Source: Lacticaseibacillus mingshuiensis
GTDB taxonomy: Bacteria > Bacillota > Bacilli > Lactobacillales > Lactobacillaceae
Direction: 5' to 3'
NCBI RefSeq assembly: GCF_016861785.1
Contig: NZ_BOLS01000011.1
Location: 1-64,000 of the forward strand
Length of the DNA stretch: 64,000 nucleotides
The position numbers and the translations under genes are program-made. The notes below the pieces were generated by a model that was not told the origin of the DNA, searched no databases, and was given only the letters and a program-made list of their open reading frames with translations. Shown here piece after piece: positions 2,985 through 64,000 of the stretch. Each line of letters opens with the position of its first letter. The stretch's first letter is position 1.

Positions 2985-3215
2985 AACAAAAAAGCCCGTC
3001 CTAAAAAATAGGACGAGCATGCTCGCGGTACCACCTAACTTGAAGGTGCCACAAACGGCGCCTTCCACTCAAGCCTTCTAACGGGTGGCCCCGGCCGCTT
3101 CTACTGACTTCAAAGCGGCTGCTCGCAAGCTACAACGATCGGTTTTTTCAAGGCTTGCACCATCCGCCTTGTCGCTGAAAAAAAACTCGACCGCCCTCTT
3201 GTTCATCGCGTTACC
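2985..3215 (-). promoter_or_regulatory. T-box leader of valS (valine specifier)
   Basis: The minus strand carries the T-box core AGGTGGTACCGCG at 3024-3036, followed by a terminator hairpin GTCCTA/TAGGAC with T6 at about 2988-3020. Upstream are stem I-like elements: a GATGGTGCAAGCC apical motif and a GAAGTCAGTAG segment whose GTC is the likely specifier codon, matching tRNA-Val. In this family uncharged tRNA pairs with the specifier and with the T-box bulge and favours the antiterminator. I read the specifier by eye; a covariance-model fold would confirm it. Confidence 0.9.
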
Positions 3216-8091: not shown

Positions 8092-8280
8092 AAAAAGGAA
8101 GTGGGCCAAATGTCGCTTTTGGGTCCGACAGGTAAGTGTTCCAAGCGCCAGGTCCGAACTTGGGACCAGGCGCTTGGATCCTTAGCTGCTCGGACCCGGA
8201 CATTTGGCCCACGACACTGCCATCACATTGGTGCACTATACAGGAACTGGGACAAAACAAAAGTTTTGTCCCAGTTCCGC
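8092..8280. repeat. Family 2 structured intergenic repeat, copy 1
   Basis: About 185 bp, nearly identical in layout to 25142-25335. It contains nested perfect stems. The outer stem is GTGGGCCAAATGTC (8101-8114) with GACATTTGGCCCAC (8199-8212). Inside it GGGTCCGA (8121-8128) pairs with TCGGACCC (8190-8197), and then TCCAAGCGCC (8140-8149) with GGCGCTTGGA (8169-8178). At the centre GGTCC pairs with GGACC. A separate 16-bp perfect hairpin follows at 8243-8278. In this copy the final hairpin has no T run on either strand. The element lies between ezrA and iscS, both on the minus strand. No transposase or coding potential is evident. Confidence 0.85.
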
Positions 8281-8307: not shown

Positions 8308-10014
8308 TTAGAACAACGAATCAGTCCGCTGGTTCAGATAATCATTTTCCACTTTTTTATAGCTGCCCGGCTCGACCTTTTCAAGCGCGCTGGCAATAGT
8401 GTCGGCTGCCGCTTGATAATTGTAGCGCGAATACTGGGTCTTGCTTTGAATGGCGGCCTTGGCCACCTCTTCGTGATTGGTCTTGTAACGGTTGGCGTAT
8501 TGCAGCAATTGCTCCGTCATCCCCGCTGCATCGACCAATGCGCGGCTTTGGTCCTTGAGCTGATCGATGTCCTCGGCGATCTTGATCAGATTTTTTGCCA
8601 CCTCGTCCATGTCGATCTTGGTCTGATTCAGATCATCATTAAGGTCGTCCACTTCTCCCGTGACTACCCGGAAAAAGTCGAGGTAGGTCTTCGGCAATCC
8701 TGGTAGCGAATGCCGCGAGACCTCGTACTTGATGTCGCGCAGATCCATCTCAAATTGGGTCGCGGAGTCGTCTGCTTTTTGCTCGCTGGCACGAAGCCCG
8801 ACCACGCTGGTATTGATGGCAACTTGCTTGGCTTCGATGTCATGCAAGGCGTTTTTCGTCTCGGTGAACTGATCCAAGATCACAGAGTAGACGGCGGTGT
8901 TTTGCTGAATCGCATCCTGGGCCCGCGTGAAGTCCTCGTTCAGGCGGTTGATCTGGTTCTGCAGACTCGCCGCGTCCTGGAGCTCGTTGTGATTCAGCGT
9001 GTAGCTTTCGTTCAGGTGATTGAGCTCACGCATCAGCGTGTTATTTTGCTTGGTCGCATGGGCGATGAACTTGGCCAGTGAATTGTGCTGACTCATCACC
9101 GCTTTTTGGGCGACCAATTCTTTTTCCATCACCGCATACAAGGCGTCGATACTCGTGGCCACATCATCCGTATTGGCCTTTAGCGCGTCCAACTGGAGCC
9201 CGGCGATCTGCGTTTGCGCCTTGGCCAATTTGGCTTGAATGACCTGAACCCCACCAGGCACGTCTTCTGTGAAAACAAAATGGCGCTGGGTGAGCGTTTC
9301 GTGGCCGGTCTCGATCTCAGTCAGCTGGGCCGGAAATTCATTGACCACGGCGTTGACCAGTGGTGGCAGTGTTTTGACCTGATCCTGCAAGGTGCGGACC
9401 TGCTTATTGACCGCATCCAACTGCGATTTGGCGGCCTCGTGATCACCGGAATCGTTGGTCACACTGACTTCCTTGAGCGCCTCGCCAATCGTCTCAAGGG
9501 ACTGCTCCAGGGTGTTCAGGGCCTCGCCGAAGGAAAAACTCTTCGCCAGGATGGTCTTGCGGGCCTCTTGATAATCATCCCGCAACTTGAGCATGCGGGT
9601 CCGGTTCTCGGCTTCGCTGGCCTTGAGCTGGGTCAACGCGGTCCGCACCTCGCCCAGTGCCTTGCGGGTGTCGAGCATGAGCTGGTCGATCGCCTTCATG
9701 CCGCTATTGACGACAGAAAAACGAAACTGCCGGTTGGCCTGTTCGACATCCAGCAACTGTGTCTGCAGATCCGTCAGATTCTTTTCGGTGAGTTGCTGAT
9801 ACGTGCGCTGCCACTTGGTGAAGGTCTTCAAACTTTCACCGGACAACCGCAACTGCTCAATGCTGCGAATCATGCCGGTCAACTCACCGGTATCCAGCGC
9901 CGCTACCGTTGCGTCCAGCTCCTTGATCTCATGCGTCAGATGGGTCTGCCACGCCCAGATCCCGACCCCCGCCAGGATGACAACCAGCAAAATAATTATG
10001 ATCATCCAAAACAT
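8308..10014 (-). CDS. ezrA: Septation ring formation regulator EzrA
   Basis: A 568-residue membrane-anchored cell-division protein that modulates FtsZ ring assembly in low-GC Gram-positives. The first 25 residues form one membrane segment (MIIIILLVVILAGVGIWAW). The rest is almost wholly helical coiled coil (spectrin-like repeats), consistent with the usual EzrA length of about 570. RBS GGAAGGTG lies before ATG 10014. The order ezrA-iscS-thiI is common in lactobacilli, although here a repeat element separates ezrA from iscS. It is divergent from the fRMsr gene. Confidence 0.95.
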   Translation of the reverse strand: MFWMIIIILLVVILAGVGIWAWQTHLTHEIKELDATVAALDTGELTGMIRSIEQLRLSGESLKTFTKWQRTYQQLTEKNLTDLQTQLLDVEQANRQFRFSVVNSGMKAIDQLMLDTRKALGEVRTALTQLKASEAENRTRMLKLRDDYQEARKTILAKSFSFGEALNTLEQSLETIGEALKEVSVTNDSGDHEAAKSQLDAVNKQVRTLQDQVKTLPPLVNAVVNEFPAQLTEIETGHETLTQRHFVFTEDVPGGVQVIQAKLAKAQTQIAGLQLDALKANTDDVATSIDALYAVMEKELVAQKAVMSQHNSLAKFIAHATKQNNTLMRELNHLNESYTLNHNELQDAASLQNQINRLNEDFTRAQDAIQQNTAVYSVILDQFTETKNALHDIEAKQVAINTSVVGLRASEQKADDSATQFEMDLRDIKYEVSRHSLPGLPKTYLDFFRVVTGEVDDLNDDLNQTKIDMDEVAKNLIKIAEDIDQLKDQSRALVDAAGMTEQLLQYANRYKTNHEEVAKAAIQSKTQYSRYNYQAAADTIASALEKVEPGSYKKVENDYLNQRTDSLF

Positions 10015-29652: not shown

Positions 29653-30153
29653 ATGTTACAACAATACAAGCATATCTTGGTCGCGATCGACGGCTCTTAT
29701 GAATCCGAGCTTGCCTTCCAGAAGGCGGTTGCCGTCGCGAAACGAAATGACGGCGAACTCGATCTTGTCAACGTGGTAGACACACGCTCTTTCTCGAACG
29801 TGTCGAGTTTTGATACCAACATGGTGGAATCAGTGGCCGCTACCGCCAAAAAGACGATGGAAGACTACATCGACCAAGCACATAAGGCCGGTCTGGAAAA
29901 GGTCACCTATAGCATCGAATACGGCGCGCCGAAAACACTGATCGCCCGCGATCTGCCAAAGAAGCTCTCGATCGATCTCATCATGATCGGCGCCACTGGG
30001 CTCAATGCGGTCGAACGTCTGTTGATCGGCAGCGTCACTGAATACGTGACCCGCAACGCCGAATGCGACGTCCTCGTGGTCCGCACCGACTTGAACAACA
30101 AGCCGGCCCTGGCAACCACCAAGGCACCAAAGAAACAGGCGCCAAAGAAATAA
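29653..30153 (+). CDS. Universal stress protein, UspA family
   Basis: A 166-residue UspA-fold protein, cytoplasmic. It has the N-terminal HILVAIDGSYESELAF with the ATP-contacting Asp, and the ATP-binding signature G-x2-G-x9-G-S in GATGLNAVERLLIGS near residue 117. A short Lys/Pro-rich tail (KAPKKQAPKK) is unusual for the family. ATG 29653 has GGAGG 8 nt upstream; two earlier in-frame starts (29644, 29647) overlap that site. A tandem array of family 1 repeats begins on the base after its stop codon, without a separate terminator. Confidence 0.93.
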   Translation: MLQQYKHILVAIDGSYESELAFQKAVAVAKRNDGELDLVNVVDTRSFSNVSSFDTNMVESVAATAKKTMEDYIDQAHKAGLEKVTYSIEYGAPKTLIARDLPKKLSIDLIMIGATGLNAVERLLIGSVTEYVTRNAECDVLVVRTDLNNKPALATTKAPKKQAPKK

Positions 30154-30440
30154 GGGTGCGTAGCGGGGCGCTTTGGGGTGAGCGGCTAATTTGGGAATGG
30201 CGCTTGGGGCCGCACTTAGCCCCGAGTGACAGTCCCAATTAGACGTCTCACCCCTGCCCCGCGAAGCCCAACTGGAAAAGGGTGCGGAGGCCCGCGGGCT
30301 GGCCGGGCAGGTAACTTGTCTCGTGCACTTGAGGCGGTCTTCGCCTCGAGTGCACGAGACAGTTAGATGTCCCGGACATGCGGGCCGAAGCCCAACTATA
30401 AGGGTGCGTAGCGCAGCTTGCGTTTCGCCCGCCACACCAA
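30154..30440 (+). repeat. Family 1 structured tandem repeats, array A (two full units and one partial)
   Basis: Units begin GGGTGCG at 30154, 30280 and 30402 (periods 126 and 122 bp) and end AGCCCAACT. Unit 1 has paired blocks GCGGGGC/GCCCCGC, GGGGTGAG/CTCACCCC, CTAATT-GGGA/TCCCAATTAG and an apical CGCTTGGGGC/GCCCCGAGTG. Unit 2 has different bases that still pair: GGCCCGC/GCGGGCC, and a 19-bp apical stem starting GTCTCGTGCACT with a single G-U pair. Unit 3 is cut after about 30 nt and runs into the terminator at 30441. The array starts directly after the usp stop codon. Confidence 0.9.
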
Positions 30441-46107: not shown

Positions 46108-46288
46108 CCACACCCCTCCTTGATTGACCACTGGCTTTCATTATACCGATATTTCGCGGTAAACGCGAACCGGTGAGAGGTCTTAAGAAATTATTCTGAA
46201 AATAGCGGGTGGGGGCTGGCGGCCGCAACGCAAAATGCCCAAACTTTCTTTCACCCCGACCATCCCGCGCACCTTTGCACCCTGAATC

Positions 46289-52032: not shown

Positions 52033-52749
52033 TTATTCCGAAACTACCTTGTGCGAGGTGTAGACCATCGCCAGGGTGACAAAGATATATGCTTGGATCG
52101 AACCAATGAAGACTGAGAACCCTTGCCAGATGATCTCCAGCAGGAATCCTGCAACAAAGCTGACTGGACCGCCAGCACCGGAAAATGCAAGCTGTCGAAC
52201 AAGCAGAAGCAGGACTTCCCCAGCATAGATATTCCCATAAAGACGTAGCGCCAATGTGATAAAGTTGGTAAACTCTTCGATCACATTGATCGGTGCCAAA
52301 AATGCAACTGGCGAAACGTATCCCTTCAGATACCCGGAAATGCCCTTGACAGCGACCCCGAAGAAATGCGACATCACTAGGACGATCAGCGCGAGGCCCA
52401 TCGTGATCACAGGATCAGCAGTCGGCGAGCGGAACCAGGTCAAACCGCCAGCATCGACCTGGAAGATCAGCCCAATCTGGTTGCTGACAAAGATGAAAAC
52501 AAACAGCACCAATGCCAGAAGCCCAAATCGATTGCCTTCAGGACCCGGCATCGCCTGTTTGACGATTCCATTGGTGAAGTCGATCAGATATTCCAAGACA
52601 TTTTGCTTGCCCCCTGGTCTCAGCTGCGGCTTGCGCGCCAGCCAAAAGAGCAAGAAAAATACGATCACGGCGGAGACCAAGATCGCAATGTCGTTGGTCA
52701 GATTGAAATGGAGCCCGAGAAATGTAACATAGGGATATTTTTCGTTCAC
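52033..52749 (-). CDS. atpB: ATP synthase F0 subunit a
   Basis: A 238-residue membrane subunit forming the proton half-channels. The essential Arg is in FITLALRLYGNIYAGEVLL near residue 165, and the last helix includes GSIQAYIFVTLAMVY. The start is GTG 52749: AAGGAGG lies 8 nt upstream, whereas the longer frame reads through that site. First gene of the operon; no atpI gene precedes it. Confidence 0.96.
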   Translation of the reverse strand: MNEKYPYVTFLGLHFNLTNDIAILVSAVIVFFLLFWLARKPQLRPGGKQNVLEYLIDFTNGIVKQAMPGPEGNRFGLLALVLFVFIFVSNQIGLIFQVDAGGLTWFRSPTADPVITMGLALIVLVMSHFFGVAVKGISGYLKGYVSPVAFLAPINVIEEFTNFITLALRLYGNIYAGEVLLLLVRQLAFSGAGGPVSFVAGFLLEIIWQGFSVFIGSIQAYIFVTLAMVYTSHKVVSE

Positions 52750-52904: not shown

Positions 52905-53121
52905 AACGATTCATGGTTTTTTAATGCCTACCACACGGGGCTTTTCATCGTTTTTTTCAGTGAAAGCGGCTTCTTTTCAGCCGGATGGCGGTGCAGTTTG
53001 ACAAGTGTATGACGGACGCCACGCAAGCGCGCGACACTGAACCGCAACTCCCCTGTTTTACACCTTGTAAGTACGAAATGCTAGTCATCCCCGCAACTTT
53101 AGAAAATCGTAAGCTGAAAAA
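52905..53121. other. Intergenic stretch upstream of the atp promoter
   Basis: AT-richer sequence with a small CGGCT/AGCCG hairpin (about 52974-52990). No gene is seen; the frames that cross it lack ribosome sites and family similarity. Confidence 0.5.
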
Positions 53122-53530
53122 GGGTGCGTAGGCTCGCGGGATGGTGGGGTAGCTAACTTGGCTTGGGCGCTTGGTGGCGCTCTTAGCCACCGAGTGCACA
53201 AGACAGTTAGATGTCCCCACCATTCGAGCCGAAGCCCAACTGCAAGGGGTGCGGAGCGGGGCGCTTTGGGGCGAGCAGCTAGTTTGGCCCAGACGCTTGG
53301 GGCTGGTCTTGGCCCCGAGTAACTGGGTCAACTAGATGTCCCACCCCTGCCCCGCGGAGCCCAACTAAAAAAGGGTGCGTAGGCTCGCGGGATGGTGGGG
53401 CAGCTAACTTGGCTTGGGTGCTTGGTGGCGCCCCTTGCCACCGAGTGCACAAGACAGTTAGATGTCCCCACCATGCGAGCCGGAGCCCAACTGCAAAGGG
53501 TGCCCAGACTCACGATGCTCGAAAACGGCG
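53122..53530 (+). repeat. Family 1 structured tandem repeats, array B (three full units and one partial)
   Basis: Units start GGGTGCG at 53122, 53247, 53373 and (partial) 53498, a period of 125-126 bp, separated by short A-rich joints. Units 1 and 3 have GGCTCG/CGAGCC, GGTGGGG/CCCCACC, CTAACT/AGTTAG and an apical GGTGGC/GCCACC stem. Unit 2 instead has GCGGGGC/GCCCCGC, GGGGCGAG-type and GGGGC/GCCCC stems. Each unit ends AGCCCAACT. The array lies downstream of upp and upstream of the atp promoter and is antisense to both. Confidence 0.9.
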
Positions 53531-53576: not shown

Positions 53577-54206
53577 TTACTTTGTCCCAAACAACCGGTC
53601 ACCTGCGTCACCAAGTCCTGGCACGATATAGCCATTTTCATTCAGATGATCATCGAGCGCAGCGGCGTAGATGTCGACATCCGAATTTTCGTCTTGAACA
53701 GCCTTGACCCCTTCAGGCGCCGCAACCAAAACGACCAGGCGAATGCTCTGGGCGCCGCGCTTCTTCAGCGCCTCGATGGCCATGTTAGCGGAGCCACCGG
53801 TCGCCAGCATTGGATCGACAATGATCATGTCACGCTGGTCGATGTCAGCAGGCATCTTTACGAAATACTCGTGCGGCTTAAGCGTCTTTTCATCGCGGTA
53901 CATGCCGACGTGGCCGACCTTGGCTGCCGGAATGAGTTCCAAAACGCCATCGACCATGCCCAATCCTGCGCGCAAGATCGGCACGATGCAAAGCTTCTTA
54001 CCAGCGAGCTGCTTTTGAACCGTTTTGCCCATCGGGGTCTCGATCTCGACGTCCTCCAGTGGCAGGTCGCGCGTGATCTCGTACACCATCAACTCCGCGA
54101 TCTCGTTTGCGATCTCGCGAAACTCTTTGGTGCCTGCATTCTTATCCCGAATCAAGGTCAGCTTATGCTGAATCAGCGGGTGGTTCAAAACCGTAAATTT
54201 GCCCAT
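53577..54206 (-). CDS. upp: Uracil phosphoribosyltransferase
   Basis: A 209-residue pyrimidine salvage enzyme that makes UMP from uracil and PRPP. The PRPP-binding loop [21 protein letters not shown] is near residue 130 and the C-terminal uracil-binding [17 protein letters not shown] is intact. AAGGAGG is 10 nt before ATG 54206. It follows glyA, with a stem-loop in the gap, in the conserved order glyA-upp-atpB. Confidence 0.98.
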
Positions 54207-60737: not shown

Positions 60738-60741
60738 AACA

Positions 60742-60790
60742 GGGTGCGGAGGGTGCGCGGGCTGGCCGAGCATAGAACTAAATTCACAAC
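60742..60790 (+). repeat. Truncated family 1 repeat remnant after murT
   Basis: GGGTGCGGA and then TGCGCGGGCTGGCCGAGCA match the first 30-40 nt of a family 1 unit (compare 30280-30310). The rest of the unit is missing. It lies where gatD would usually begin. Confidence 0.65.
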
Positions 60791-63731: not shown

Positions 63732-63799
63732 GACCATCGCCCCCTTTGCGCAAAGCATACACGCAGACGAGGAAAAAAGCTGGAATCCGGTCTGGAAAA

Positions 63800-64000
63800 G
63801 GGTGCGCAGGCTCGCGGGATGGAGGGGCAGCTAACTTGGCTCGGGTGATTGAGGCGCACTTCGCCTCGAGCACACGAGACAGTTAGATGTCCCCGCCATG
63901 CGAGCCGAAGCCCAACTGCAAAAGGGTGCGCAGGCTCGCGTTTAGGGGTGGGCAGCTAGCTTGGCCTAGGTGCTTGGTGGCGTCCCTTGCCACCGAGTGC
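63800..64000 (+). repeat. Family 1 structured tandem repeats, array D (one full unit, second cut by the window end)
   Basis: Units start at 63800 and 63924 (period 124). Unit 1 has GGCTCGCG/GCGAGCC arms and a long apical stem whose GATTGAGGCG pairs with CGCCTCGAGC; it ends AGCCCAACT. Unit 2 begins with the same GGCTCGCG and is truncated by the window edge in its GGTGGC/GCCACC apex. The array lies upstream of the VOC gene start and reads away from it. Confidence 0.88.

Follow-up and report, generated by a model that had tools for sequence, protein, structure and literature searches.

ERIC/IRU, REP/BIME, Correia and bcr1 elements are interspersed imperfect palindromes whose size or mosaic arrangement resembles that of the repeats described here; unlike any of them, the present family has one fold common to a genus, spelled with mostly different helix letters. 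Integron attC arrays likewise consist of tandem folded units with a strand-specific fold, and group II introns and retroelements offer an analogy as structured RNAs in which target-primed copying leaves a precise end and a ragged one. The arrays studied here differ from the former in having no integrase over cut-off and no cassette genes, and from the latter in that four genomes with more than 100 units have no reverse transcriptase (RVT_1) match.

In kind, the family stands nearest to small interspersed repeats such as BOX and ERIC. The authors of PMC3049150 judge BOX, RUP and SPRITE of Streptococcus pneumoniae to be parasitic; these are small Firmicute repeats with predicted RNA stem-loops, and BOX has tandem inner units in variable number, features that recur in our family. 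In that description BOX is a composite boxA–boxB–boxC with proposed IS-like ends, whereas here each unit is a complete rod, and, unlike BOX, the arrays are open-ended with a 3′-truncated tail. Arrays of complete units, 5′-precise and 3′-ragged ends and the pairwise replacement of helices across the genus set the family apart from the BOX/ERIC kind as a whole. REPs accompany Y1-type transposases, according to PMC2817692; in our family, by contrast, Y1 presence does not follow copy number. The consulted portions of PMC2267715 and PMC1590033 name Lactobacillus once, for L. johnsonii.

The array lies between upp and the ATP synthase gene atpB, both antiparallel to its folding strand, in the window, a stretch of 64,000 nucleotides of Lacticaseibacillus mingshuiensis DNA. 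A sequence-only reading had described a tandem array of about 125 bp here, and this is borne out by Tandem Repeats Finder (53117-53503, period 125, 3.1 copies, score 404), by a covariance model, R1, and by the NCBIfam neighbours (Table 1). Its three full units stand; the partial fourth shrinks to a probable, imperfect remnant of 18 nt, 5′ part only, below our counting cut-off for fragments. Inspection located the helix pairs that had been named, GGCTCG/CGAGCC and GGTGGC/GCCACC in units 1 and 3, and GCGGGGC/GCCCCGC and GGGGC/GCCCC in unit 2, which is unlike the other two in most helices and pairs equally well. The predicted folding energy of unit 1 is −72.9 kcal/mol; shuffled sequences average −44.9 ± 4.0, and none of 200 was as good (z −7.0). 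Between the array and upp, a hairpin followed by a T-run resembles, by inspection, a upp terminator.

Table 1. Repeat units, fragments and related features of the window; positions are counted from its first letter.
Feature	Position	Strand	Basis and remarks
T-box leader	3006-3215	−	Rfam, 118.7 bits
Second, sequence-distinct hairpin repeat	8100-8216	+	
Gene before second array	29653-30153		Universal stress protein models match, below their cut-offs
Second array, two units	30153..30397	+	R1; first unit flush with stop codon of gene 29653-30153
Lone 5′ fragment	46250..46283 (end approximate)	−	Directly behind T-tract, TTTTTTTGATTC
atpB	52033-52740	−	NCBIfam
Unit 1, type A, full rod-like hairpin	53121..53241	+	R1, 129.9 bits; fold z −7.0
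Unit 2, type B, helices swapped as pairs	53246..53366	+	R1, 106.7 bits
Unit 3, type A, near copy of unit 1	53372..53492	+	R1, 134.8 bits
Probable trailing 5′ fragment, unit 4	53497..53514 (about)	+	Score 10.5 (counting cut-off 12); inspection
upp	53577-54206	−	NCBIfam
Lone 5′ fragment	60741..60772 (end approximate)	+	Just 3′ of stop codon of MurT-like gene
Third array, two units	63799..64000 (second unit reaches C11:64044, beyond the window)	+	R1

R1 was built on an alignment, A1, drawn from 83 units of the best 30 blastn loci (locus L007 dropped as a duplicate of L003), of which 69 were left after a 95% identity filter. Units are about 121 nt long, and the RNAalifold consensus of A1 is a single rod of 40 pairs: a basal stem, a G/A-rich internal loop, a second stem, a 5′-side bulge with UUA, a long upper stem and a terminal loop bearing CUU. 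A kink-turn at the basal internal loop, considered by eye, was dropped, as the loop G at column 9 varies. In A1, 96.0% of cells are paired; shuffling the columns brings this to 80.7 ± 0.5%, and sliding one side along by 1-3 columns to 32-42%. Two-sided changes occur in 24 of the 40 pairs and in 466 cells (148 ± 14 in shuffles), and for five measures of covariation none of 500 shuffles reaches any observed value. The units are related and the shuffles ignore relatedness, a point answered in part by the slid controls and by other lineages. Five of these, folded separately from 14, 14, 15, 6 and 35 units (the last being L. zeae and G027 joined), each gave the same single-rod layout, including the TTA bulge or uneven loop and the CTT terminal loop, in helix letters that are mostly not those of A1. 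A UUA bulge and a CUU loop are common to six lineages. The covariation of the unit helices is overwhelming, and the view that paired changes reflect selection on a fold is supported, with values far above controls in the 69 non-redundant units and paired change recurring in the five other lineages.

Changes in the second and upper stems take a particular form, in that helix letters swap as whole blocks with few intermediates. Because every lineage has its own consensus, the pattern suggests that units are homogenised within genomes. Over the shorter distance between our genome and its sister species, 34 orthologous unit pairs (those with at least 0.88 identity, which excludes faster-changing units) differ at 3.8% of paired and 7.4% of unpaired sites; among 98 base pairs changed between the two species, 4 were changed on both sides and kept, and 48 involve a non-standard pair.

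The folded form had been left as RNA or DNA, and this can now be narrowed to a single strand, RNA or single-stranded DNA. Consensus pairs of A1 include 378 G-U against 34 A-C, and for each of the 69 units the fold of the plus strand is better than that of the complement. Most of the G-U excess is owed to a handful of fixed wobble columns, and the bias is modest (51 versus 32) once only columns with no more than 15% G-U are counted. In the five other lineages the G-U:A-C counts are 58:9, 56:2, 68:9, 14:0 and 154:4, made on the plus-strand consensus, which favours G-U. A less biased test is offered by recent one-sided changes in the 34 orthologous pairs, where exchanges between Watson-Crick and G-U outnumber those between Watson-Crick and A-C by 46 to 16 (p 1.8e-4). 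The reverse-strand consensus also folds, more weakly (−40.0 versus −51.4 kcal/mol; 28 pairs, G-U 31, A-C 40). The plus strand is therefore the folded one, and the excess of G-U over A-C makes this a single-strand fold rather than a double-strand cruciform. RNA is the best fit and most likely the folded molecule, single-stranded DNA being less likely.

With the array as blastn query, its own genome (G000) returned 52 matches, and with R1 at least 150. We counted 192 units in 105 arrays within 607 kb of G000, composed of stretches picked because R1 found units there and so not a random sample; the genome total is at least 192. Single units make up 49 arrays, doubles 35 and triples 12, with eight arrays of four units and one of five. 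The count derives from 226 R1 hits, less 34: two that repeated the array at the window end and 32 that scored under 37 bits, many of the latter on the opposite strand of counted units. GC content ranges from 0.55 to 0.72. A second, sequence-distinct hairpin repeat is found in three very similar copies, in the window (Table 1), at L166 16330-16446 (+) and at L144 4491-4607 (−), which score 35-36 bits with R1 and fold at −76 to −86 kcal/mol. Its layout is that of the main unit, with an outer helix GTGGGCCAAATGTC/GACATTTGGCCCAC or close, then a 5′ bulge, and CTT in the terminal loop. A search of 301 loci with a fixed-sequence pattern of the copy at 8.1 kb came back empty, since the outer helix is not the same in the other two copies.

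Where arrays sit relative to genes was determined with our own simple hexamer-based gene finder. By this measure, four of the 105 arrays overlap a predicted gene and the rest are intergenic. In 52 arrays the upstream gene is on the same strand, and 27 of these start within −1 to 6 nt of its stop codon; none of the 57 arrays whose 3′ end meets a converging gene lies at such a distance (the two nearest at −4 and 7). Among 21 same-strand arrays farther off, a terminator is called in 10 and a T-run stands right before the array in 15. Several T-runs before arrays carry TTTTTTTGATTC or a close form, and this short leader lies between different terminators and the array start at L149, L133, L154, L184 (two), L135 and window position 46283 (−), as if it were copied or chosen along with the element. 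Downstream of the 27 stop-codon arrays a terminator is called in 8; the scan finds one at 43 of 94 array-free convergent gene ends. In 50 of 105 arrays the preceding gene is on the other strand; its start codon is 60-100 nt away in 22 of them. Beside arrays with such a divergent gene, 25 of 33 best −35-like hexamers start 0-19 nt away (an uncontrolled count). At L213 of L. zeae, inspection indicates that the 5′ edge of an array can touch the ribosome-binding site. Arrays in G000 show no strong orientation bias relative to genes, with 34 opposite to both neighbours and 29 along both.

The two ends of an array are not alike. Arrays begin at the edge of a unit, which often abuts a stop codon or terminator. 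Across the 103 of 105 arrays included in the count of end fragments, 77 have a 3′-truncated unit (13-90 nt, median 29) behind the last full unit, and two have a leading 3′ fragment, both from internally deleted mini-units. Linkers before the trailing fragment are 0-9 nt, of no constant length. Mini-units with basal stems alone, the inner hairpin being absent, also occur at L168 (about 9772-9802, −) and L200 (near 1450-1495, +), and are likely deletions between hairpin arms.

Comparison with the sister species L. yichunensis gave 39 orthologous arrays, 37 of which have their 5′ edge in the same place within 6 nt. Unit number, by contrast, differs freely, for example 1 versus 6. In the 37 orthologous arrays compared, the best unit pair has an identity of 0.90-0.99 in 30, 0.84 in one and 0.72-0.80 in six; the flanks of these six are 88-99.7% alike. 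In our genome, neighbouring units (85 pairs) have a median identity of 0.738 and units of different arrays 0.736; the best partner of a unit in another array reaches a median of 0.905, and up to 0.99. Simple tandem duplication was accordingly rejected as the source of the arrays: a minority of neighbours are near-identical, but most resemble each other no more than units from separate arrays do. Nor does rolling-circle copying of a single unit account for arrays whose members are dissimilar. Types A and B alternate among neighbours in 53 of 85 cases with one helix label (42 expected, p 0.011) and in 51 with the other (45 expected, p 0.11), so avoidance of like neighbours is only weak.

Gains and losses were also sought. 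Two places were called empty in G000 and filled in the sister species: one begins right at a terminator T-tract, and its spacer also differs; the other corresponds to the lone 5′ fragment near 60741, in whose place the sister holds a full unit and a fragment. Lone 5′ fragments may be deletion products. We found no fresh insertion, the most closely inspected empty site (L185 versus L246) having a differing spacer and therefore not being a simple one. Two L. paracasei plasmids differ at the same mannose-PTS locus by one whole unit and a mini-unit. In the upp–atpB gap itself, the L. yichunensis array is shorter and lies on the same strand as ours. L. suibinensis and L. suilingensis carry different units there, which follow the upp stop codon directly and are on the strand of upp; in most other named species examined, R1 has no match at this place.

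R1 matches occur in 26 of 30 Lacticaseibacillus genomes (E 0.01, our own included), the four without being G009, G012, G022 and G025, and in 22 of 26 genomes reached via named upp loci (E 0.001); the two sets overlap (G021 and G060 share coordinates, and others seem identical), so these counts are not independent. Matches number at least 138 in L. yichunensis, 134 in L. kribbianus, 116 in L. jixianensis, 40 in L. zeae and 33 in L. chiayiensis and, outside the genus, 19 in Schleiferilactobacillus shenzhenensis and six each in S. perolens and Lapidilactobacillus luobeiensis. Under stricter filters, none of 79 other genomes of the order (nine of the same family) gave a match. A longer size class of the family is present at L241 843-1365 (−) of L. 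jixianensis, where three relatives of 171 nt (27-31 bits, period 176) stand in tandem beside 125-nt units. With an L. zeae unit as query, matches were obtained in 14 of 72,556 plasmid records, five from Lacticaseibacillus and nine from Pediococcus, and in none of 50,697 phage records. Units do cross genera on plasmids, because casei-type units occur on these Pediococcus plasmids (for example NZ_CP035153.1 8397-8513).

No Rfam family accounts for the units. Searches of Rfam at gathering and E-value level, with the window units and 16 loci of other lineages, returned no family over its gathering score on a unit; a microRNA family match on the L288 unit (28.7 bits against a gathering score of 100, E 0.07) was taken as chance. 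To judge by titles and opening abstract lines, none of the papers listed in literature searches deals with the family, an earlier account in the L. casei literature being possible. The sequence-only reading would have been overturned by an absence of covariation or by membership in a known family, and neither was found with the methods used here. The units are many, short, intergenic and non-coding, with a stable hairpin if transcribed, as in BOX/ERIC-like repeats. They are not intrinsic terminators, as the hairpin has no U-tract directly after it (the units end, by inspection, in AGCCCAACT or close forms, with a linker, the next unit or a fragment behind), nor CRISPR arrays, with linkers of a few nt and mostly dissimilar units.

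The search for a driver turned to enzymes encoded in the genomes. Y1_Tnp is found in 13 and RVT_1 in 11 of the 30 genus genomes, with no clear relation to copy number. G000 has three Y1 matches and no RVT_1 match; RVT_1 is also unmatched in G006, G011 and G021, which like G000 have more than 100 units each, and Y1_Tnp in G006, G011 and G014 (119, 103 and 104 R1 matches), so that G006 and G011 have neither. The Y1-type RAYT looked for in REP/BIME systems is thus not a regular companion of high copy number. An integron integrase over the curated cut-off was found in none of the 30 genomes, and weaker tyrosine recombinase matches to the integrase model occur in all 30 and likewise in all 14 controls. 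Reverse transcriptase, Y1 transposase and integron integrase were accordingly rejected as drivers.

On balance, we read the units as a non-coding, non-autonomous interspersed repeat family of Lacticaseibacillus, selfish and BOX/ERIC-like, with an RNA-type fold unusually well kept. In such a family, host replication or recombination enzymes would make new copies, starting at the 5′ end of a unit and often stopping short of its 3′ end. Copies that fold badly would either fail to spread or not be tolerated as part of a transcript, and the single-strand fold would be kept for that reason. Transcription of an array right behind a stop codon would give a strongly structured 3′ UTR, any effect on RNA decay or read-through being a by-product. 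Copy number and spread, covariation, strandedness, unit turnover at fixed places, near-identical units at different loci and the polar array ends speak for this reading. Counting against it are that neither a mobilising enzyme nor a fresh insertion was found, the modest strand bias outside the fixed wobble columns, the few two-sided changes kept between sister species, the weaker fold of the reverse strand and the 50 arrays behind an opposite-strand gene. Long-term keeping of the fold across the genus would also suit a host function, and we rank second, as rather unlikely, a host-useful RNA element: 3′-UTR hairpins that fix mRNA ends or block read-through and exonucleases, or a landing place for an RNA-binding protein. 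The strand-specific fold with its fixed G-U positions, the bulge and loop shared by six lineages, the halved divergence of paired sites between sister species and the 27 arrays at stop codons, 8 with a terminator called downstream, are all consistent with such a role. It sits poorly with the 50 arrays whose preceding gene is on the other strand, with the inverted units in the upp–atpB gap of L. suibinensis and L. suilingensis and the R1-absent gap of most other named species examined, and with the four genus genomes that have no R1 match and the free variation in unit number between sister species.

The remaining readings concern how the units arise or move. The boldest is a bacterial SINE-like element, a gene-less structured RNA or single DNA strand of about 121 nt whose copies would start exactly at the 5′ end, break off randomly and land at sites that include terminator T-tracts; units would move from locus to locus, and the copying step would enforce the fold. 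In G027, the sole closed genome tested for fork orientation, which begins at base 1 with a gene that looks by eye like dnaA, a turning point at 1.45 Mb leaves 48 of 67 arrays running against the fork (46 and 47 with two other cut points), as lagging-strand-primed copying would give; G006 and G011, with neither reverse transcriptase nor Y1, also carry units, and we consider this identity unlikely. An ordinary MITE moved by a resident IS transposase would explain small, intergenic, many-copy hairpins that reach plasmids. It appears quite improbable given tandem same-way arrays, the lack of phage matches to the L. zeae unit, a GC content far from AT-rich, and ends that, by eye in A1, form no terminal inverted repeats (AGGGTGCGGAG at one end, AGTTGGGCTTCG inward from the other). 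A target duplication of constant length was not seen, and the empty site inspected is not clean. Long hairpins are prone to quasi-palindrome correction, and template switching of this kind could match the arms at the DNA level, with no selection on the fold, and produce the whole-block changes of the second and upper stems. That one-sided bulges and fixed G-U pairs persist, that wobbles are strand-asymmetric and that paired sites diverge less makes such an artefact very improbable. Least probable of all is an attC-like role, as in integrons, in which the units would be gene-less cassettes recombined as single-stranded DNA: head-to-tail arrays of unlike units, a strand-specific fold with extra-helical bases and a unit-precise difference between two plasmids recall it, but the genomes hold no integron integrase over cut-off and the arrays no cassette genes, and the 5′ end of the unit has no attC core box.

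If the units are indeed a selfish, BOX/ERIC-like family, genomes of a genus in wide use for food and probiotics carry anything between a few copies and hundreds of a strongly structured repeat next to stop codons and terminators, in L. zeae among others and on plasmids of L. paracasei and L. rhamnosus. The family is a rare data set in which single-strand covariation can be traced within one genome and across a genus, and it makes testable whether such repeats spread via a folded RNA or a folded DNA strand. The hairpins may also shape RNA 3′ ends in these bacteria.
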